From contig CP073216.1 in assembly GCA_020342235.1 (NCBI GenBank), forward strand, positions 1,506,170 through 1,570,169: a DNA stretch of 64,000 nucleotides, given 5' to 3'. The notes beneath the pieces are model-generated. The model saw nothing but the letters and a program-made list of their open reading frames with translations. It was not told the DNA's origin and searched no databases. Positions 484 to 63,017 of the stretch are shown one piece after another; the first letter of the stretch is position 1; each line of letters begins with the position of its first letter. This DNA is from Saccharomycopsis phalli (Eukaryota > Ascomycota > Saccharomycetes > Ascoideales > Saccharomycopsidaceae). The position numbers and the translations under genes were made by a program.

Positions 484-1063
484 AAATGTTCATCAAAGTA
501 TTAATTGGATAGTATTCCAAAGTAGCTGAACCATAAGAAAGCCGTAATATCATTGCTGTTTACTGCGCAACAAGCTCAACTGTGTATTTTCAATATTGAA
601 CGATAATCAAATTACTGTAGCCATTGGTCATTAGAAGACGGAAGGCATTATTACGGCTGAGATGTGTATATTTACGGTCGAGACGTATATATTTACGGCT
701 GAGACGTGTATATTTACGGCCAATGTGCGTATATTTAATTTTTTGTATAGTATTCTTAGTATCAAACAAATACTCACAATGCCTTGGCCCAATGCCATGG
801 AATTTTGCCATTCAATAGTCTGCATGCTATTTAAACAGCCGTATGCACATCGGAATGTCGAATTCAACAAAGAGGATACATTCACTCTTCAGTAGCCATT
901 GACAAAATAAATTCACACAATATTATCATCGCACCTCTTATTATTCTCTATTGTTTTGTTCCGCCACTTTTCTGTCTATTCTCCGGTGTTTTCTTTGGCA
1001 CTGCCATACCACTTCGTTTCAACATGCATGGCCATGTCCATCGCAAATCACACCGTTATTGCC
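484..1063. other. Intergenic, AT-rich, with a small minisatellite
   Basis: No supported gene. The only structure seen is the 21-bp repeat at 650-733 and the promoter of the next gene. Confidence 0.6.
650..733. repeat. 21-bp tandem repeat, 4 imperfect copies
   Basis: Unit approximately TTTACGGCTGAGACGTGTATA, repeated four times with a few substitutions. The short ORFs crossing it on both strands are by-products of the periodicity. Confidence 0.8.
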
Positions 1064-1070
1064 TATATAA
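1064..1070 (+). promoter_or_regulatory. TATA box upstream of the repeat-rich secreted protein
   Basis: TATATAA lies 26 bp upstream of the ATG at 1096. It makes the upstream in-frame ATG at 1024 unlikely as the start, because the TATA box would then lie inside the coding region. Confidence 0.45.
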
Positions 1071-1095
1071 AGCCAAAAATAACCACAACATCAGT

Positions 1096-3435
1096 ATGAA
1101 TTCTGTAATATTTTTGACCATTTTAATACATGGCATCAGTGCTATGTATGCCTCTTCAGTGTCTAGCAGAAGAACAAACAGGCCATCCAAATTTTTTCCG
1201 TCTCGACACGAGCATTCTATCCCAAACCTCTACATTGTCATAATGAAAGACCTGCAAAGTGAAGAGGAAATAGGGCAGTTTATGACTTATGCCAATAACT
1301 TACAAAATGAAGCACTTGCTGACGCGTATAACGCAAAACACAAACTGAGCAAGAATGAACTCCCACTGATCGAAGAGGAAGCCCCACTGAGCAGATATAG
1401 TGACCAAGTGAGCCGAGGTGACCAAGGCAGCAGATTTAGTGGCAAACCGAACCAAGGTGATCAAGGCAGCAGATATAGTGACCAAGTGAGCCGAGGTGAC
1501 CAAGGCAGCAGATTTAGTGGCAAACCGAACCAAGGTGATCAAGGCAGCAGATATAGTGACCAAGTGAGCCGAGGTGACCAAGGCAGCAGATTTAGTGGCA
1601 AACCGAACCAAGGTGACCAAGGCAGCAGATATAGTGACCAAGTGAGCCGAGGTGACCAAGGCAGCAGATTTAGTGGCAAACCGAACCAAGGTGATCAAGG
1701 CAGCAGATATAGTGACCAAGTGAGCCGAGGTGACCAAATGAGCAGATTTAGTGGCAAACCGAACCAAGGTGACCAAGGCAGCAGATATAGTGACCAAATA
1801 AGCAGACATGGTGACGAACTGAACAATAATGAGGATCAACTGAACAGATTTCGTAGCCTGCTGAGTCAGGGTGACGACCAGCTGAGCAGATTTCGTGGCC
1901 AACTGAGCAGATCAATGAGTCAACTGAGCAGATTTGGTGACCAACTGAACAATAATAATTACGAACTGAGCAGATCAATGAGTCAACTGAGCAGAGCTAA
2001 AGTAAAAAGGAGCGGATTTGGTGAACAATGGAGCGGATATAGTGACCAAATGAACCAAGGTAACCAAATGAGCAGATATAGTGACCAAGTGAGCCAAGGT
2101 GAAGTATCAGGAAACAGATATCGTGTCCAACTGAGCAGAGGTGGTAGTCAACTGGACAGAGATGACGTTCAACTGAACAGAGATGGTAGTCAACAGAACA
2201 GATATCGTGTCCAACTGAGCAGAGGTGGTAGTCAACTGGACAGAGATGACGTTCAACTGAACAGAGATGGTAGTCAACAGAACAGATATCGTGTCCAACT
2301 GAGCAGAGGTGGTAGTCAACTGGACAGAGATGACGTTCAACTGAACAGAGATGGTAGTCAACAGAACAGATATCGTGCCCAACTGAGCAGAGGTGGTAGT
2401 CAACTGGACAGAGATGACGTTCAACTGAACAGAGATGGTAGTCAACAGAACAGATATCGTGTCCAACTGAGCAGAGGTGGTAGTCAACTGGACAGAGATG
2501 ACGTTCAACTGAACAGAGATGGTAGTCAACAGAACAGATATCGTGTCCAACTGAGCAGAGGTGGTAGTCAACTGGACAGAGATGACGTTCAACTGAACAG
2601 AGATGGTAGTCAACAGAACAGATATCGTGTCCAACTGAGCAGAGGTGGTAGTCAACTGGACAGAGATGACGTTCAACTGAACAGAGATGGTAGTCAACAG
2701 AACAGCCATCGTGTCCAACTGAGCAGAGGTGGTAGTCAACTGGACAGAGATAACGTAAAAGGGAGCGGATATGAAGAGAGTGTTGCCAGAAGCTTAGTAG
2801 ATCGGCTTCAGGATATGAGCTTAGAAAAGCCTAGAGGAGTTGTTTACTCACCAATTACCACGGCTACGGGAAATCAAGTCTTTTTTGGTATTTTTCACAA
2901 GTCTGTAGCTGAAATTCTCAGCGAAAACAGTCTTGTGAAATACGTCGCACAAGACAGTAATTCAGGAACAATAGCCAAAATTGACCAAGAAAACTGGGCT
3001 CGTGAAGATAAAGGTGCGGATGAAGTAATATACCTTTTGGAAATAAATGGCGATCCTATAACCCCTCTGTTCACGAACATGTTTAACTACTTTCCAAAAA
3101 TGTGTTATATCAGACCCACAGATGAACATCGCGCCATGTATAGTAAGTATCATACTCGAGCTATTGATCGAGCGTATGCACTTGCTAGCAACCATGTGGG
3201 AGTATTACCTAAAGCCCAGGTCGTTATTGTACCTACTTATTCTGCGTTTGATAGTTCCATGACGTCTACATTAAATGCAATGGGCTATGCTCTCAATGAT
3301 TTTTCTTCGCTGCGATATGAAAGAAAAGATATGGTGGTAAAGATCGGTCTTGATTACCAATCTGGTGAAGTCGATCCAATTGGAGATGCCAAGAAATTGA
3401 TGACTAAACATAACCGTTTTGTTCAATTTAAGTGA
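1096..3435 (+). CDS. Secreted repeat-rich pseudo-subtilase with split I9-like propeptide
   Basis: About 779 residues. I chose the ATG at 1096 because it opens a good signal peptide (MNSVIFLTILIHGISA) and follows a TATA box; the frame is open from an ATG at 1024. Residues ~44-70 (YIVIMKDLQSEEEIGQFM) look like the first strand and helix of a peptidase inhibitor I9 propeptide. Residues ~592-620 (FFGIFHKSVAEIL, then KYVAQD) look like its last part. Between them lie ~500 residues of hydrophilic tandem repeats. After the propeptide comes half of an S8 subtilase domain, matching the subtelomeric paralogues at 56595 and 62037. The catalytic His is present (~residue 686), the Asp position appears to be Glu, and the protein stops before the SGN and GTS blocks. 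I infer a catalytically dead secreted or wall protein. Many repeat codons are CTG and would be Ser if CUG is reassigned. Confidence 0.7.
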   Translation: MNSVIFLTILIHGISAMYASSVSSRRTNRPSKFFPSRHEHSIPNLYIVIMKDLQSEEEIGQFMTYANNLQNEALADAYNAKHKLSKNELPLIEEEAPLSRYSDQVSRGDQGSRFSGKPNQGDQGSRYSDQVSRGDQGSRFSGKPNQGDQGSRYSDQVSRGDQGSRFSGKPNQGDQGSRYSDQVSRGDQGSRFSGKPNQGDQGSRYSDQVSRGDQMSRFSGKPNQGDQGSRYSDQISRHGDELNNNEDQLNRFRSLLSQGDDQLSRFRGQLSRSMSQLSRFGDQLNNNNYELSRSMSQLSRAKVKRSGFGEQWSGYSDQMNQGNQMSRYSDQVSQGEVSGNRYRVQLSRGGSQLDRDDVQLNRDGSQQNRYRVQLSRGGSQLDRDDVQLNRDGSQQNRYRVQLSRGGSQLDRDDVQLNRDGSQQNRYRAQLSRGGSQLDRDDVQLNRDGSQQNRYRVQLSRGGSQLDRDDVQLNRDGSQQNRYRVQLSRGGSQLDRDDVQLNRDGSQQNRYRVQLSRGGSQLDRDDVQLNRDGSQQNSHRVQLSRGGSQLDRDNVKGSGYEESVARSLVDRLQDMSLEKPRGVVYSPITTATGNQVFFGIFHKSVAEILSENSLVKYVAQDSNSGTIAKIDQENWAREDKGADEVIYLLEINGDPITPLFTNMFNYFPKMCYIRPTDEHRAMYSKYHTRAIDRAYALASNHVGVLPKAQVVIVPTYSAFDSSMTSTLNAMGYALNDFSSLRYERKDMVVKIGLDYQSGEVDPIGDAKKLMTKHNRFVQFK
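1390..1779 (+). repeat. 78-bp coding repeat, 5 copies (block A)
   Basis: Five head-to-tail copies, in frame, of a 26-residue unit that begins SRYSDQVSRGDQGSRF and ends NQGDQG. The copies differ at only a few bases, which implies recent expansion or homogenisation. Degenerate derivatives continue to about 2112. Confidence 0.95.
2113..2757 (+). repeat. 84-bp coding repeat, 7 copies plus a partial (block B)
   Basis: Seven 28-residue units (NRYRVQLSRGGSQLDRDD..., standard code) start every 84 bp from 2113; a partial eighth starts at 2701. Copy four differs by V to A and is otherwise almost identical. Three codons per unit are CTG, so a CUG-Ser code would turn each of those Leu into Ser. The minus strand is also open across this block only because of the repeat periodicity. 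Confidence 0.95.
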
Positions 3436-16465: not shown

Positions 16466-17884
16466 ATGTACCGGCCTCCTTACCTCAACAACCGGAAGAA
16501 CAACACGAAATCGCCGCGGTTGAAACTCAACACCAGCGTCGTGGGCGGACTCCGGCCGAAGCTTGCCATGCAGGAAGTGTCCGAGTCGAGCGCGAGCGTC
16601 AGCGACGACGCGGGAAGCACCGAAGAAGGTGGCGTGATGAAGCCGGGGCAACGGCAGCTGATCAGCCGGCTGATCTCGACGGCATATTCGCCGACGCCGT
16701 CCAGCTCGTCGAACGGCGAGCCGAGCCCAAGTATATTCTCGCATGCGATTTTGGAGGAGATTGGGCACAGTGGGCCGGGTGAGGACGCGGAGGTTGCTGC
16801 GCGGCTGCAGCGGCACACTGTGGACGGGCACGAGCTCGGGGCGCAGCTCCAGGGGATGACGTTGGAGCCGCGGGCCGGCGGGCTCGGGGTGCCGCGGCTC
16901 CGCAGGGGCTACTCCAAGAGCATGCAGTTTGTCATTGACAAGTCGTTCAACGACTTAGAGGAGGAGGACTGGAAGAAGCTCTTTATGCGGAACGAGATCG
17001 AGGAACTAGCGATTCTCGGGGAAGGCGCGGGCGGGTGTGTGTCCAAGTGCCAGTTGAAGGAGCACGGCACGATCTTTGCGCTCAAGACCATCACCGCGAA
17101 CCCAAACCCGGAGTTCCAGAAGCAGATTCTCCGGGAGTTGAAGTTTAACAAGAGCTGCGACAGCCAGTACATTGTCAAGTACTTTGGCACGTTTCTCGAC
17201 GAGAACAACAGCCGCATGTGCATTGCCATGGAGTACATGGGCGGCCGCTCGTTGGACGCAATGTACAAGCGCGTCAAGAGCATGGGCGGCCGCATCGGAG
17301 AAAAGGTCTTGGGCAAAGTCGCCGAAAGCGTGCTCCGCGGCTTGTCGTACCTCCACAGCAAGAAGATCATCCACCGCGACATCAAGCCGCAGAACATCTT
17401 GTTGAACGACGCAGGCGAAGTCAAGTTGTGCGACTTTGGCGTCTCGGGCAACGTCATCAACTCCTTGGCGCTGACCTTCACCGGCACATCCTACTACATG
17501 GCGCCTGAGCGCATCAAGGGCGAGTCCTATACCGTCACCCTGGACGTGTGGTCCTTGGGCTTGACGTTGTTGGAGGTTTCCCAGGGCAGGTTCCCGTACA
17601 ACAAGGGGGAACTCGACGGCGACAAGACCGTGGTGCTTGGGCCTATTGAGTTGTTGACTGCGATTCTCACGTTTACACCCGAGTTGAAGGATGAGCCGGA
17701 GAAGAGTATCAAGTGGTCCAAGAGTTTCCGCTCGTTTATTGAGTATTGTTTGATTCGCGATCCCAAGAGCAGGGCGTCGCCTCGGCAGATGTTGGATCAT
17801 CCGTGGATACTTGGGCAGATGAAGAAGACGGTTCGGATGGATAGGTTTGTGCAGGAGTGTTGGAAGGAGACGATGGAGACGTGA
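16466..17884 (+). CDS. MKK1: MAP kinase kinase of the cell wall integrity pathway (MKK1/MKK2 type)
   Basis: 472 residues from the ATG at 16466, in the good context ACCACCATG; an upstream TTG extends the frame but is not a likely start. The kinase domain covers ~residues 180-455: glycine loop LGEGAGGCV, catalytic Lys in ALKTI (~207), HRDIKPQN (~303), DFG (~323) and APE (346-348). The activation segment resembles yeast Mkk1/2 (NSLA-x-TFTGTS-x-YMAPERI), which relays signal from the MAPKKK Bck1 to the MAPK Slt2. Codon 336 in this segment is CTG where Mkk1 has Thr, which suits Ser better than Leu. The N-terminal ~170 residues are Ser/Arg-rich and GC-rich. A 13-bp repeat begins right after the stop. 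Confidence 0.9.
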   Translation: MYRPPYLNNRKNNTKSPRLKLNTSVVGGLRPKLAMQEVSESSASVSDDAGSTEEGGVMKPGQRQLISRLISTAYSPTPSSSSNGEPSPSIFSHAILEEIGHSGPGEDAEVAARLQRHTVDGHELGAQLQGMTLEPRAGGLGVPRLRRGYSKSMQFVIDKSFNDLEEEDWKKLFMRNEIEELAILGEGAGGCVSKCQLKEHGTIFALKTITANPNPEFQKQILRELKFNKSCDSQYIVKYFGTFLDENNSRMCIAMEYMGGRSLDAMYKRVKSMGGRIGEKVLGKVAESVLRGLSYLHSKKIIHRDIKPQNILLNDAGEVKLCDFGVSGNVINSLALTFTGTSYYMAPERIKGESYTVTLDVWSLGLTLLEVSQGRFPYNKGELDGDKTVVLGPIELLTAILTFTPELKDEPEKSIKWSKSFRSFIEYCLIRDPKSRASPRQMLDHPWILGQMKKTVRMDRFVQECWKETMET

Positions 17885-36454: not shown

Positions 36455-39232
36455 TTATTTCTTCCTAGACTTTGCGGGTTTCTTTTTCGCCACTTTCTTC
36501 GCAGAGGGTTTCTTTGCCTTAATTAATTTGTCCTTGGTTATATCCTGGCTTTCTTCCTCATCATCCTCTTCTTTCACCTCCTCGATATCATCGTCAATCG
36601 CATCTTCCAAATCTGGCTTGGCACTGGAAACACCCTTGCTGGAAGTTCCAGCCACACCAACCCGGTTTATCGAAACCGCATGGGTTTGGGAGTTGTACTT
36701 TCGGGTAAAGGCAGACTTGACTGGAGTTGGCAACTTCTTGGACACAATGTCCAACTTGTACTGGCTGGTACCGATGTTGAAGTCCAATATATAGTCCCAG
36801 TCTTCCTTTGTAAAACAGTATGAGTCGAGAATGGAAATCACCTCGGCGATTCCCTCTGAGCCGTGGTTGATTAACGGGTCGGACAATTTTTTGCTGAGTA
36901 GATTGATGTAGTTTAGTCTCAACTGGTTCTTGTCGGCAAGAGTCAGCAACTTTGAGTGGTAGTTCAAGTCGGTGAGAAGTCGCAAGTACTTGTTTCGTTT
37001 GGAATTGGCTCCCAAGTAGGACGTGAAGTTGATTCGCCCAGTTATTTGACCGTTGACGTAGGAACACGGGCGGATCGACGACATGACTGCGTGAAGAGGC
37101 ATGAGAGACCACTGTTGCTCGGAGGAGTGGATTTTGCTGTCGATAAGGTCCGCCTCTGAGATCGAATTACTGGCCTTTTCCACCAACCTGAGATGGTCGA
37201 GATTCAGGGCCGATTTGCTGGGCTTTGTTGCCATGTAGTTCTCGTGGACCATCAATGGCACAAAGCTGTGGTCGTCAAAATAGTACTGGATCTTTTCATT
37301 CAACGATACCTTTGAGCTGGCGGCCCAGATCCCCGAGGAAAGATACTTGCCTGCAATATCAAAAGTCTTCATGGCGACGTTTTTCTCCCAGCCGCCCATC
37401 ACGTCCTTGTAGTTTGATCCAGTCAACTCCTTGGTGGTCTTGCTCACTGTGGACAACAAGTTGATAATCTGGCGGATATCGTTCTTGGTGTACTCGACAA
37501 GCCGGTCAATGACTTCTGGCGGGACCTTGATCTTTTCCCGAAGACATATCGTGAGGATCCGCAGCCGGATTGACGTGGCATCTGGTCGGCGGAACTGTAC
37601 ATCCATGGTGACCTTGTCAAACGGCCGCATCTTCGGTAGCGACTTGTCGTTGCAAATAAGAATGATTGGGATCGACGTCTTGCGGCAAAACTGCGCCAAC
37701 GCTCCGACACCTCCCATATCACCAGAGGACATCCCATCAACCTCATCCATGATAAGACAGAGCTTATGATCGCTGTTGTTGGCCAGCTTGTCGAAAAAAC
37801 TCACGACCGATGTGTTGTCAAGCACATCCTTCACCGTCTGGTTGAGCAACGACTTGCTCCGCACATCAGACGCGTTTTTCTCAATGATATCATAGCCCAT
37901 ATCCTTGGCAATAATGTGTGCAGCTGTGGTCTTTCCAATGCCCGGAGGCCCGCTGATTAATATCGCAGGAAACGACTCACCATAATACTTGAACTTTGCC
38001 CGCTTGTTGGCGTCCCAACTACCCAACCACTTCATGATCTTAGCCACTTGGCCCTTGTTCCCACAGATCTGAGACACTTTTGACGGCGCATACTTCACAG
38101 TCCACAACTTCTCTGAATCAGGCCGCTCGCTCGGCTTAATATAGTCGTCGTCCTTGGTCCGTTTTCGACGCCGTGAGTCTTCTGCTTCTGCTTCTGCAGC
38201 TTCTCGTTCCGCTGTTGCCTGCATTTCTCTCGCAGCTTCTTCCTTCTTGGCCAATATCTTCTTGGCAGCTTCGTTATCATCTCCTCCGTCTTCCGGCATA
38301 CCCTCAATGAGCGTCACAAACCCATCCTCGTCGATATGTTTGACCCCGAGTTTCTGGATTTTCGCCACTTTCGAAGGTCCTGCACCTTCACCTAGCACAA
38401 CAACACTGGTCTTTCCACTCACTGACTTGGTGACTTTGGCCCCATACTCTGTGGCTAGTGCCTCACAGTCCTCACGGTTCAAGTGTGGCAAGTTTCCGGT
38501 GAAGACAATTGTCAAGCCAACAAGACAATTGGGCTTGCCAACTGGCTTTTTGAACGACTCATCGGTCACCTGGGCATCCAACTCGGCTTTTTTGGCGAAG
38601 AAATTCACCTTGGCACTAGTATCCACTTCTGGAAGCTCGCAATTTGGAATGGCATTGAGGATCGTCAAGGCAGACGGTTCGCTTCCGGTATTTGTTGTGG
38701 AAGGTTTTGGCTTAGTCTTTGGCTCAGCTTTTGGTTTAGTCTTTGGTTCAGCTTTCGGTTTAGTCTTTGGCTCAGCTTTTGGTTTAGTCTTTGGTTCGGC
38801 TTTTGGTTTAGCCTTTGGCTCAGCTGTTGGCTTAGACTTTGGCTCATCCTTTGATTTGATCTTTGACCCATCCTTTGACTCTTCCTTTGATTCTTCCTTT
38901 ATTTTCCGTCGCTTTTCAACACTCTCAGTCATATCCGAATCTCGTCCCCGAATTCGACTTCTTCGCTTCAACTTCACCCCATCTTCATCTGAATCCGTAT
39001 CCACCTTTGTCGACTCAACCTCCGGCTCCAAAACCTCCATGATTTCATCCTCATCATCATCAAATTCATCCCCCAGAGGAACATACTCGGCAACATCTGA
39101 ATCCTCCTCGACAGGCTTTTTGGCCTTCTTGCCTACATTCTTCTTTGCAGGCTCCTTTTTTGGATTCGCATTCTTCTTTGTTGGCCGAATTGACTTGCCT
39201 TTGTTGAAAAAATCAGCAATGTCAGTACCCAT
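36455..39232 (-). CDS. RFC1: Replication factor C large subunit RFC1
   Basis: 925 residues (yeast Rfc1 has 861). It is the clamp loader's large subunit, opening PCNA at primer-template junctions. Order of features: N-terminal PCNA-binding motif IADFFNKG; an acidic/basic disordered region with an 8-residue repeat EPKTKPKA (~130-175); a BRCT domain (~230-310, GLTIVFTGNLPHLNREDC); AAA+ Walker A GPPGIGKTT (~430); Walker B LIMDEVDG (~495); SSEQQWSLMPLHAV; and the RFC1-specific C-terminal domain ending in a Lys-rich tail. Codon 557 (37562-37564) is CTG within TSIR-x-RILTICLREK, where yeast Rfc1 (recalled) has Ser (NSIKSRLMTIAIREK). The four CTGs noticed fall outside conserved Leu positions. Confidence 0.96.
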   Translation of the reverse strand: MGTDIADFFNKGKSIRPTKKNANPKKEPAKKNVGKKAKKPVEEDSDVAEYVPLGDEFDDDEDEIMEVLEPEVESTKVDTDSDEDGVKLKRRSRIRGRDSDMTESVEKRRKIKEESKEESKDGSKIKSKDEPKSKPTAEPKAKPKAEPKTKPKAEPKTKPKAEPKTKPKAEPKTKPKPSTTNTGSEPSALTILNAIPNCELPEVDTSAKVNFFAKKAELDAQVTDESFKKPVGKPNCLVGLTIVFTGNLPHLNREDCEALATEYGAKVTKSVSGKTSVVVLGEGAGPSKVAKIQKLGVKHIDEDGFVTLIEGMPEDGGDDNEAAKKILAKKEEAAREMQATAEREAAEAEAEDSRRRKRTKDDDYIKPSERPDSEKLWTVKYAPSKVSQICGNKGQVAKIMKWLGSWDANKRAKFKYYGESFPAILISGPPGIGKTTAAHIIAKDMGYDIIEKNASDVRSKSLLNQTVKDVLDNTSVVSFFDKLANNSDHKLCLIMDEVDGMSSGDMGGVGALAQFCRKTSIPIILICNDKSLPKMRPFDKVTMDVQFRRPDATSIRLRILTICLREKIKVPPEVIDRLVEYTKNDIRQIINLLSTVSKTTKELTGSNYKDVMGGWEKNVAMKTFDIAGKYLSSGIWAASSKVSLNEKIQYYFDDHSFVPLMVHENYMATKPSKSALNLDHLRLVEKASNSISEADLIDSKIHSSEQQWSLMPLHAVMSSIRPCSYVNGQITGRINFTSYLGANSKRNKYLRLLTDLNYHSKLLTLADKNQLRLNYINLLSKKLSDPLINHGSEGIAEVISILDSYCFTKEDWDYILDFNIGTSQYKLDIVSKKLPTPVKSAFTRKYNSQTHAVSINRVGVAGTSSKGVSSAKPDLEDAIDDDIEEVKEEDDEEESQDITKDKLIKAKKPSAKKVAKKKPAKSRKK

Positions 39233-47822: not shown

Positions 47823-47913
47823 GATACAGTGGCCGAGTGGTTAAGGCGCCGCCCACAGAGAAATTTGTTAGGCGCTGGCATTTGCCTCGCAGGTTCGAAT
47901 CCTGTCTGTGTCG
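47823..47913 (+). tRNA. Putative tRNA-Ser with anticodon CAG (CUG-decoding), short intron
   Basis: The acceptor GATACAG pairs with CTGTGTC, with discriminator G73, a Ser trait (Leu tRNAs use A73). The D-arm TGGCCGAGTGGTTAAGGC and T-arm GCAGGTTCGAATCCTGT are canonical. The long variable arm (GGC-ATTT-GCC) makes it class II. The anticodon stem CGCC pairs with GGCG around a 17-nt loop. With the intron after position 37, the loop is C32 A33 C34 A35 G36 A37 A38 and the intron is 10 nt (47860-47869), containing TTG that could pair with the anticodon. The 5' end GATAC matches Candida tRNA-Ser(CAG) from memory. U33 is absent (A33), and C27-C43 do not pair. A pseudogene is the alternative. Confidence 0.65.
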
Positions 47914-48366
47914 TTATATTTTTTGGCCTGGGTTAATGTTAGTCAGAACTGATTGTCGGAGTGTCGGTTAACACGCTTTAAAGAAACCGATTTTGCTTTC
48001 CCGATCGTATCCGCGCATCCAGCATGCATGCAGCTCTATGCGTTGCAATCACCGAAGTGAGAAGCAACACAGGTACACAGTGCAGATAGTAATGCACAAG
48101 AGATATTGTGAAAGATGTAGCGAGATGAGGAAAGTCAAACGTACATTAGAGAAATACGCTTGTCCAATCAGCGTTTCCAGTTTAGTAGCCATGGTTGCCC
48201 TCCACACGGGGTTACAGATTGTAGGAATGAAAGTTAACTGAATGCAGTAATCAATGCAGGTCGCGATATTTGGAAAGATCGCAGGAGGTAACTGTTGTAA
48301 AATAATGAGGCAGAAATAAGGACGCGGCACCAGGATATTATTTTATGTATATGCAAGATAGAATAT
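47914..48366. other. Intergenic, no gene seen
   Basis: An 82-codon plus-strand ORF (47993-48241) is Cys/Arg-rich but unrecognised; I do not call it. Confidence 0.4.
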
Positions 48367-56594: not shown

Positions 56595-57560
56595 CTATCC
56601 TAAGCCATTGCCAATTAACGGTGCATTGGTCCCTTTGAACAGCTTGACTTCATGTGGGTTGGAATGATCTCGGAGCAATTGCTTCATATCTCTTGAACTG
56701 TAATCGTCATGCATATAGGTGACTCCTGGGTCTGGGTGAGTTGAAATGAAATAAGCAATAAGACCTGATACTTGCGGAGCGGCATATGAGGTACCCCTGA
56801 TTTGAACATTATCAAAGACAAGTTTGTCAGCTATGGCAAAAAAATCGACGCACTGTCCCCAGTTTGAAAATTCGGACTCAACATTATTATAATCACATGA
56901 CCCAACGACAATGGCGCGTTTTGAACTAGCCAATGGAATTCTGCAGGCATCTTCATTTGCATTACCCGAAGCAATTACCACATGAACGCTTGGATTTCGG
57001 CGAAGTAACTTATCTAAATCATCCAGGATCATGTGTGGTGTATCAAATGGACGATCATTGTAGCCAATACTGACATTGATAACAATGCCTTTGGGATGTG
57101 AATTTCGACGATTTGCGTGATAGTCATTGATTGCAAATATAATTCCATCAATAACATCGTCTATGATACTTCCCTTTTTAAATCTTGCAGGGATGAAAAA
57201 TACTTGGGCATTTGGTGCCACACCTATATCTTTTCCAGCAGCAAGAAGAGCGCCATTCATACCATGATAAGAATTATCTGGAGGTGCGCGATATTTATCC
57301 TTTTGATCCATATAAAGGAGCTCGGGTTGATGGATAAAATAATCTTTGTAACTAAGCAATGATACCAGAGGAGCAGAGTCGACGATGTAGAGTGCCACAC
57401 CTTCACCAGCCTGTGACTGATACTTATAGTAGTATGGACCAGTGGCAGGTAGAAATTCGGCGGAACTTGAGATGCGGGCCAAATACTCTGGTGATTTTTG
57501 TGTGATGATATTTGCGAAGGTTAGATGGAGGAAATGACAGAAGAGTATTGTCAGGAGCAT
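56595..57560 (-). CDS. Small secreted S8 subtilase lacking a propeptide (copy 1)
   Basis: 321 residues from the ATG at 57560; the TTG at 57569 is unlikely. A signal peptide (MLLTILFCHFLHLTFA) leads almost directly into the catalytic domain (YLARISSSAEFLPATG). Proteinase K-type catalytic residues are present: Asp61 in YIVDSAPL, His99 in NSYHGMNGALLAAG, oxyanion Asn200 in IASGNANEDAC and Ser258 in RGTSYAAPQVSG. The usual HGTHVAG is altered to HGMNGAL, so the second conserved His is missing. SSFSN-like SEFSNWGQCVDFF also matches. No I9 inhibitor propeptide is encoded, which is unusual because it normally guides folding. Paralogue of 62037 and of the degenerate protein at 1096. Confidence 0.85.
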   Translation of the reverse strand: MLLTILFCHFLHLTFANIITQKSPEYLARISSSAEFLPATGPYYYKYQSQAGEGVALYIVDSAPLVSLLSYKDYFIHQPELLYMDQKDKYRAPPDNSYHGMNGALLAAGKDIGVAPNAQVFFIPARFKKGSIIDDVIDGIIFAINDYHANRRNSHPKGIVINVSIGYNDRPFDTPHMILDDLDKLLRRNPSVHVVIASGNANEDACRIPLASSKRAIVVGSCDYNNVESEFSNWGQCVDFFAIADKLVFDNVQIRGTSYAAPQVSGLIAYFISTHPDPGVTYMHDDYSSRDMKQLLRDHSNPHEVKLFKGTNAPLIGNGLG

Positions 57561-62036: not shown

Positions 62037-63017
62037 TTAGCAAACGTAGTTCGCTGTGTTAATATCATTTCTAATTAATGTGGCTTTGGTACCTTTAGTC
62101 AGAGTAATGGGACGGTCCTTAGAAAAATTAAAGAGCACTTTTTTCATCGTTTCTGAATCCCAATCACCATTCCCATATGTGCTTTGGGAGTGTGGATTAA
62201 TTGAAATAAAGTAAGCAATGAGCCCTGATACTTGTGGAGCAGCATATGAGGTACCTGAGAATGAAGATTCTTTAATTGAAATGCCCTCACCCGTGGCAAA
62301 GAAATCGACACATTGTCCCCAGTTCGAAAAGCTGGACTCGGCACCATTGAAATTGGAAGATCCAACAATTATTGCTTTTTTTGAACTGGTAAATGGAAGT
62401 TTACAGGCATCTTCATTTCTATTACCTGACGAAATCACGACATGAACTTTTGGATTATTGGTAAGAACCTTATCTAAATATTGCAGAGCTATATGAGGAG
62501 GATCTGATATAGGATCAATATCGCCGATACTCAAGTTGATAACAATACCTTTGGGGTGAGACTGTCGACGGTTTTCGTTATAATCCTTAATTGCATAATC
62601 AACACCCTTTAATGCCTCACGCGCTGTGAAGGGTCCATTAAATTTGATAGGGACGATGAATACTTGCGATTTTGGTGCGACACCTGTATATTTTCCAGAA
62701 GCAATGAGGGCAACATTAATAGCATGATGAGAATTATCCATCACGGGACGGGAGCGATCATTTTCGTCTTTATAAATAATTTGGGGCGGATTGTTGAATA
62801 GCTTGTTGTATTTGGATATATCTACCAGGGGTGCAGTGTCAATAACGTAGATAGCTACGCCTTCACCTGCTTGAGACTGATATTTATAGCACCAAGGGCC
62901 TTTCTCCGATAGTAGTTCAGGAGGGGTTGAGATGCGAGCCAAATATCTTGGGGCATTTTGTGTGACAATCACAGCAAGAGTTAAATGGAAAAGATAAAAG
63001 AAAATTGAGAGGAGCAT
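62037..63017 (-). CDS. Small secreted S8 subtilase lacking a propeptide (copy 2)
   Basis: 326 residues from the ATG at 63017. The frame is open further upstream, but this start gives a signal peptide (MLLSIFFYLFHLTLA) aligned with the copy at 56595. The catalytic set is complete: Asp60 in YVIDTAPL, His98 in NSHHAINVAL, Asn199 in ISSGNRNEDAC and Ser257 in SGTSYAAPQVSG. As in copy 1, the residues after the His diverge (HAINVA instead of HGTHVA) and no I9 propeptide precedes the domain. Identity between the copies is moderate and spread over the whole length, so they are not a fresh duplication. It lies ~0.7 kb from the telomeric array and its 3' end abuts an LTR. Confidence 0.85.
   Translation of the reverse strand: MLLSIFFYLFHLTLAVIVTQNAPRYLARISTPPELLSEKGPWCYKYQSQAGEGVAIYVIDTAPLVDISKYNKLFNNPPQIIYKDENDRSRPVMDNSHHAINVALIASGKYTGVAPKSQVFIVPIKFNGPFTAREALKGVDYAIKDYNENRRQSHPKGIVINLSIGDIDPISDPPHIALQYLDKVLTNNPKVHVVISSGNRNEDACKLPFTSSKKAIIVGSSNFNGAESSFSNWGQCVDFFATGEGISIKESSFSGTSYAAPQVSGLIAYFISINPHSQSTYGNGDWDSETMKKVLFNFSKDRPITLTKGTKATLIRNDINTANYVC

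Follow-up and report, generated by a model that had tools for sequence, protein, structure and literature searches.

The yeast from which this DNA derives is, we are nearly certain, of the CUG-Ser2 type (probably Ascoideales, and there most likely Saccharomycopsis): CUG, a leucine codon in nearly all other organisms, is read mainly or only as serine by changed copies of tRNA-Ser(GCU), and the ancestral tRNA-Leu(CAG) appears to have been lost. This bears out the initial annotation, which had proposed serine as the meaning of CUG, and is supported by the anatomy of the decoding tRNA, by Pfam profile scores (+75 bits), by sites aligned with homologues in the PDB (+40 bits) and by pattern scans of the genome, in which no tRNA-Leu(CAG) was found. 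The window analysed here is a stretch of 64,000 nucleotides (C5:1506170-1570169); the genome totals 14,148,124 bases, distributed over 8 contigs.

The gene at positions 47823-47913 (plus strand) had been described as a class II tRNA gene with G73 and, after removal of an intron, a CAG anticodon. This description was confirmed by an Rfam RF00005 match, which spans exactly 47823-47913 on the plus strand and scores 39.2 bits at a gathering score of 29, and by reading of the sequence, which has a long variable arm and G73 at position 47913. The acceptor stem is GATACAG/CTGTGTC, the D arm GCC/GGC and the anticodon stem CCGCC/GGCGC, in which the pair farthest from the loop is a C-C mismatch. The anticodon loop comprises C32, A33, the anticodon CAG (bases 34-36, positions 47856-47858), A37 and A38; A33 to A37 occupy 47855-47859 (plus strand), in a register taken from six tRNA-Ser(GCU) genes, and a 10-nt intron, GAAATTTGTT (47860-47869, plus strand), is inserted between bases 37 and 38. 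In the predicted fold of the pre-tRNA, this intron pairs with the anticodon (ACAGA/TTTGT) and closes a GAAA loop, with the 3' splice end before A38 as in tRNA-Ser(GCU). The intron site, which is the canonical one, is fixed by comparison with the genome's six tRNA-Ser(GCU) genes, all of which share the loop frame. A run of six T resembling an RNA polymerase III terminator (47919-47924, plus strand) lies 5 bases behind the gene. The gene is probably transcribed and spliced, and its product charged with serine.

ARAGORN reported no tRNA at 47823-47913 with bacterial settings and, with introns allowed, labelled the gene as tRNA-Thr(tgt) with an intron placed at base 33. We dropped this identity because of the class II arm, G73, the canonical intron site shared with tRNA-Ser(GCU) and the presence of normal class I tRNA-Thr(TGT) genes elsewhere in the genome. 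Automatic annotation of such genomes may thus hide the CUG-serine tRNA gene behind a threonine label.

Three copies of tRNA-Ser(CAG), 99-100% alike, are present genome-wide: the window copy on C5, an identical copy on C7 and a copy on C3 with 1 change in 91 bases, which converts the acceptor-stem pair U3-G70 to U-A. A T run of 5, 6 or 8 bases starts from the sixth base behind each of them. The next-best six matches are tRNA-Ser(GCU) genes with 75-78% identity, intron included. Exon identity was highest with tRNA-Ser(GCU) (68/82, 83%), followed by tRNA-Ser(CGA) (62/82) and tRNA-Ser(AGA) (54/83), with three tRNA-Leu types at 60-65%; for the acceptor and T arms the values were 30/32, 25/32, 24/32 and at most 20/32, respectively. 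Hence, tRNA-Ser(CAG) is a changed tRNA-Ser(GCU). The existence of three near-identical copies, whose only base difference merely swaps a U-G and a U-A pair, speaks against a standard code, in which CUG would mean leucine and the gene at 47823 would either be a pseudogene or have a different anticodon. Such a code would accommodate the threonine label given by ARAGORN and could draw on wobble of a tRNA-Leu(UAG), which is present; it is opposed by the normal class I tRNA-Thr(TGT) genes, by the failure to find a tRNA-Leu(CAG) in the pattern scans and by the 75 (Pfam) and 40 bits (PDB) in favour of serine, and we consider it extremely improbable.

On C7, a tRNA-Leu(UAA) gene and the tRNA-Ser(CAG) gene are arranged head to tail (C7:1518961-1519140) with a gap of 5 bp. 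The absence of a T run between them suggests a joint transcript, so that a leucine reader and the reader of CUG as serine are probably joined in one two-tRNA transcript. Close tRNA pairs also occur elsewhere in the genome: five tRNA-Leu(CAA) genes (C1:1739008, C4:1802166, C6:1541163, C8:18486 and C3:1724883) closely precede another tRNA on the same strand, with about 120 bp from the A box to the next gene. One of these pairs was read through and has no T run between its members, again resembling a two-tRNA transcript.

A scan of the genome with a class II A-box pattern returned 34 genes, compared with 0 in the reversed control, and all 34 were read: 12 tRNA-Leu(CAA), 6 tRNA-Ser(GCU), 5 tRNA-Leu(AAG), 4 tRNA-Ser(CGA), 3 tRNA-Ser(CAG), 3 tRNA-Leu(UAA) and 1 tRNA-Leu(UAG). 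A tRNA-Ser(AGA) gene seen once, beyond the 34 counted, has a different A box, which means that genes with other A boxes escape this class II count. Base 33 is A in each of the three tRNA-Ser(CAG) genes, whereas the remaining 31 of the 34 have U33. Base 37 is A in the tRNA-Ser genes read, tRNA-Ser(CAG) included, and G in the tRNA-Leu genes read.

No tRNA-Leu(CAG) was found in the genome by four pattern scans. The pattern AGGCN8CAG...GTTCRA gave 4 matches, namely the three tRNA-Ser(CAG) genes and one stray (reversed control 4); a variant with U33 and a relaxed D stem matched two strays only (control 0), and a form independent of intron length again gave the three tRNA-Ser(CAG) genes and one stray (control 4). 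At the three stray places, ARAGORN with introns up to 400 detected no tRNA; this program finds the real tRNA-Ser(CAG) gene but misreads its anticodon. The scan AAGGCN7TCAGR, with 45 matches against 46 in the reversed control, is uninformative alone, and ARAGORN found no tRNA in the 4 of these 45 places that were fetched. A tRNA-Leu(CAG) combining an unusual D arm with a long intron could slip past such patterns. As regards a normal tRNA-Leu(CAG/TAG) set, which together with a silent gene at 47823 had been named beforehand as evidence against a serine code, the CAG member was not found, yet the single tRNA-Leu(UAG) gene exists and could in principle wobble to CUG. The sole CAG tRNA found with these class II patterns is class II itself, carries G73 and derives from tRNA-Ser.

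The meaning of CTG in proteins was first assessed with Pfam profiles. The test set comprised 17 proteins of the window, from gene-like ORFs that contain one CTG or more, together with 22 ORFs of the locus with at least three CTG codons, and scans were run with CTG read as leucine, serine or alanine. Among the matches listed (25 of 42 and 25 of 74 families with CTG as leucine), 33 families were kept; in these, serine gained 75.1 bits over leucine in sum, with 22 families up and not one losing more than 0.5 bit. Alanine likewise raised most of the kept scores over leucine, and serine exceeded alanine by 14.8 bits summed over the same 33 families, again among the matches listed. In a power control, reading all CTN codons as threonine (table 3, in which ATA is changed too) lowered the summed score of 21 window families by 193 bits; 20 of them went down, and the one that rose was Peptidase_S8 (+2.8 bits). 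This family was matched by 2 of the 17 window proteins. Two related short proteins at 56595-57560 and 62037-63017 of the window, near the end of contig C5, appear subtilase-like by eye.

The sum excludes models that overlapped a retained model on the same protein, for which the changes with serine were MFS_1 -0.2, PK_Tyr_Ser-Thr +5.8, AAA_18 +0.5 and Microtub_bd +2.0 bits. Two RING-finger models and Rad17, which was absent from the serine list, were also omitted. The beta-propeller models, all ascribed to one Prp46-like protein, were reduced to WDR3_1st (+5.3 bits); the omitted ones were WDHD1 (-13.5) and WDR36 (-9.7), both against serine, and eight others with +2.2 to +13.0 bits. Without the Prp46-like protein, serine remains ahead of leucine by about 70 bits in 32 families among the matches listed. 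The score of the ACR3 family (SBF) increased by 1.7 bits with CTG as serine.

A second test compared CTG sites with homologues in the PDB; tallies took the place of single-site comparison with individual yeast proteins. Eight proteins were aligned (RFC1, Prp46, kinesin, cullin, xylulokinase, MKK, CPT-like and DPP4-like), with CTG kept as leucine during alignment, which biases the result against serine. The best PDB match was used for the tally except for Prp46 (the second match, named PRP46; the best has Ser, not Thr, at 129) and DPP4 (the third match; the best has Asn, not Ser, at 124). The alignment blocks used contain 26 CTG sites, 3 of which fall into gaps, and the 23 scored sites face Ser 6, Thr 3, Asp 3, Leu 3 and Gly 2 times and Glu, Pro, Lys, Ala, Asn and Gln once each. 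CTG sites thus do not face mainly leucine, the outcome that would have contradicted the initial annotation: 3 of 23 have leucine and 6 serine, and the 14 others are all polar or small. These sites favour serine over leucine by 40 bits. In the same alignments, which served as yardstick, all true leucine codons were negative (CTA -38, CTC -164, CTT -141, TTA -12 and TTG -273 bits) and all six true serine codons positive (+41 to +120 bits). The last four proteins were chosen partly for CTG sites that looked motif-like by eye; when the tally is restricted to the first four (RFC1, Prp46, kinesin and cullin, 15 sites), serine is still favoured by 19 bits, though leucine (3) outnumbers serine (2) among the facing residues.

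Summed BLOSUM62 scores over the 23 sites were +22 for Ser, +7 for Thr, +2 for Asn, 0 for Asp, -5 for Ala and -37 for Leu. The gap between -5 and +22, together with the lead of 15 bits for serine in the Pfam test, argues against alanine as the meaning of CUG, the code of Pachysolen and Nakazawaea, despite the improvement of most kept Pfam scores over leucine. The class II patterns returned no CAG tRNA other than this G73-bearing derivative of tRNA-Ser, and we regard the alanine code as having a negligible probability.

Clear serine-like CTG sites are codons 557 of RFC1, 359 of MKK, 34 of xylulokinase, 243 of Prp46 and 72 of the CPT-like protein. The gene for RFC1 (36455-39232, minus strand) has CTG at codons 53, 483, 557, 676 and 763; the count of four given earlier was one too low, and the two CTG codons counted in ACR3 were correct. 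Codon 557, for which serine had been claimed as the counterpart, indeed faces Ser in the PDB RFC1 chain 7tib_A, which we take to be the S. cerevisiae protein. In the MKK-type protein kinase (16466-17884, plus strand; assigned by Pfam and by PDB alignments to MKK1), CTG codons 336 and 359 lie in the kinase domain. Codon 336 is CTG as stated and faces Asn in the PDB MKK1 chain 3orn_A, where Thr had been claimed for Mkk1; codon 359, which the initial annotation did not mention, faces Ser, at the position of the serine before DVWSLG.

Leucine faces 3 of the 23 CTG sites as compared with 4 of 205 true serine codon sites (Fisher p = 0.024), and the best-fit leucine-like share of CTG sites is 13.5%, with a zero share being 2.1 natural-log units worse. 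Two of these leucine-facing sites are in kinesin, one of them just behind the motor domain, and one is in cullin. The excess may reflect alignment noise in these proteins, relics of leucine sites or a minor ambiguity of decoding. The latter alternative, under which CUG is mostly serine with a minor share of leucine through wobble of tRNA-Leu(UAG) or through an unnoticed tRNA-Leu(CAG), overlaps our preferred explanation, and ambiguous CUG decoding was reported for Ascoidea asiatica in the text available. The excess of leucine over that at true serine codons and the one tRNA-Leu(UAG) gene would fit it. However, the homologues of kinesin and cullin are divergent, which makes alignment noise likely at all three sites, no tRNA-Leu(CAG) turned up in the pattern scans, and tRNA-Ser(CAG) has A37 in place of the leucine identity base G37; we therefore consider ambiguous decoding unlikely.

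The rarity that had been claimed for CTG concerned conserved cores; in overall usage, CTG is the rarest codon of the leucine box in 74 uncurated ORFs of the locus (145 of 21,472 codons; CTA 187), but in the 17 window genes it is not (57 of 7,835 codons; CTA 51). A repeat protein (1024-3435, plus strand) contains 39 CTG codons, and 31 of these fall in a single column of its repeat. One position of this repeat had been held to suit a hydrophobic residue and thus to speak against serine. This objection fails: the 63 copies of the column carry CTG 31, Gly 16, Val 6, Gln 6, Met 3 and Ile 1 times, and since Gly or Gln stands there more often than Val, Met or Ile does, hydrophobicity is no requirement at this position. 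The repeat is rich in Gln, Ser, Arg and Gly, CTG is the commonest codon in this one column, and it seems to have spread with duplication of the repeat.

With serine as the preferred reading, a copy of tRNA-Ser(GCU) had its anticodon changed to CAG and its U33 replaced by A33, retained A37 and G73 as well as the long arm recognised by seryl-tRNA synthetase, and was amplified to three copies. Loss of the ancestral tRNA-Leu(CAG), which seems to have occurred, would leave tRNA-Ser(CAG) without a dedicated competitor; wobble to CUG is the most that could be expected of the one tRNA-Leu(UAG). For annotation, CTG of this genome should be translated as serine (NCBI table 12). Standard translations very probably have the wrong amino acid at every CUG, that is at about 7 codons per thousand, and the affected sites include residues that adjoin motifs, among them (S)DVWSLG of the kinase and SLGT(S) of xylulokinase.

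In six-frame searches of the whole genome, ATP-sulfurylase (PF01747) and the sulfite reductase family NIR_SIR (PF01077) gave no match; the comparison family PF01053, which served as positive control, gave 7. This suggests auxotrophy for organic sulfur, in line with the absence of genes for sulfate uptake and assimilation described for Saccharomycopsis in the excerpts available (PMC6508603, PMC11392346). Relics of linear-plasmid DNA polymerase (PF03175) were likewise not matched, but 14 controls were equally without a match, so that this result carries no information. The origin from tRNA-Ser(GCU), A37 and the missing sulfate families point to CUG-Ser2 and probably to Saccharomycopsis. A fourth, independent CUG-to-serine reassignment outside the Ascoideales would have had to use tRNA-Ser(GCU) again; in its favour, the genus is no more than probable and A33 is not described for Ser2 in the portion of the literature searched, but source gene and A37 agree with Ser2 as outlined in the available text of PMC5951914, and the two unmatched sulfate-assimilation families fit Saccharomycopsis, so that we judge it very unlikely.

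The CUG-Ser2 clade (Saccharomycopsis and Ascoidea; Krassowski et al. 2018, PMC5951914) is characterised, in the sections consulted, by a tRNA-Ser(CAG) derived from tRNA-Ser(GCU), by A37, by CUG as serine and by few CUG codons at conserved sites. The present genome likewise has a class II tRNA-Ser with anticodon CAG and G73 that stems from the AGY-reading tRNA-Ser(GCU), A37 beside the anticodon in 3 of 3 copies, and CTG that acts as serine in conserved proteins in both the Pfam and the PDB tests. In the text available, a Leu-type tRNA(CAG) was counted in 4 of 5 (PMC5951914) and in 10 of 11 Ser2 species (PMC8629427), whereas none was found here; this genome resembles Ascoidea rubescens, for which loss of tRNA-Leu(CAG) was reported. 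Candida albicans and relatives (CUG-Ser1) also read CUG as serine and have replaced U33, according to the excerpts available, but with G33 in most members and C33 in C. tropicalis and C. sojae, compared with A33 here. Their tRNA goes back to a tRNA-Ser for UCN codons, with G37 in most cases (PMC5951914, in part); the closest relative here is tRNA-Ser(GCU), and A33 and A37 stand where most CUG-Ser1 members have G33 and G37.

G37 is described as a leucine identity element, and G33 in the Candida tRNA as lowering leucylation, in the parts seen of PMC8629427 and PMC8645108. The tRNA(CAG) of Saccharomycopsis schoenii and S. fermentans is stated to be without G33, and the Ser2 literature text searched contains no account of A33, of three tRNA-Ser(CAG) genes or of such a gene 5 bp behind a tRNA-Leu(UAA). 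It is conceivable, though somewhat doubtful, that the code change is complete here, with tRNA-Leu(CAG) gone and three tRNA-Ser(CAG) genes in place, and that the near-universal U33 was lost independently of the Candida clade with its G33. If so, loss of U33 would be a recurrent step in turning a serine tRNA into a CUG reader, acting through weaker leucylation or weaker decoding. With its seemingly finished transition, its three tRNA-Ser(CAG) genes and its changed base 33, this Ser2-type genome offers a case in which to test how a sense codon acquires a new meaning and how the rival tRNA is lost.

As far as the consulted text goes (PMC6508603, PMC13148404), S. schoenii shares with this genome CTG as serine and the lack of sulfate assimilation genes. 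It differs in having two tRNA(CAG) genes, of which the first is Ser-like and the other closer to leucine tRNAs, compared with three tRNA-Ser(CAG) here, and 6 nuclear chromosomes with 33.8% GC, compared with 8 contigs and, across the sampled sequence, 41% GC. The base m1G37 is ascribed to its Ser-like tRNA, compared with A37 here; the excerpts differ on this base, as A37 is given as a Ser2 feature in PMC5951914 and G37 for S. schoenii in PMC6508603. For S. fodiens, one tRNA(CAG) was reported in the text available. The CUG-to-serine code itself has precedents in a small set of yeasts, of which this genome is a further member; it seems to have lost tRNA-Leu(CAG) and has three tRNA-Ser(CAG) genes that carry A33.
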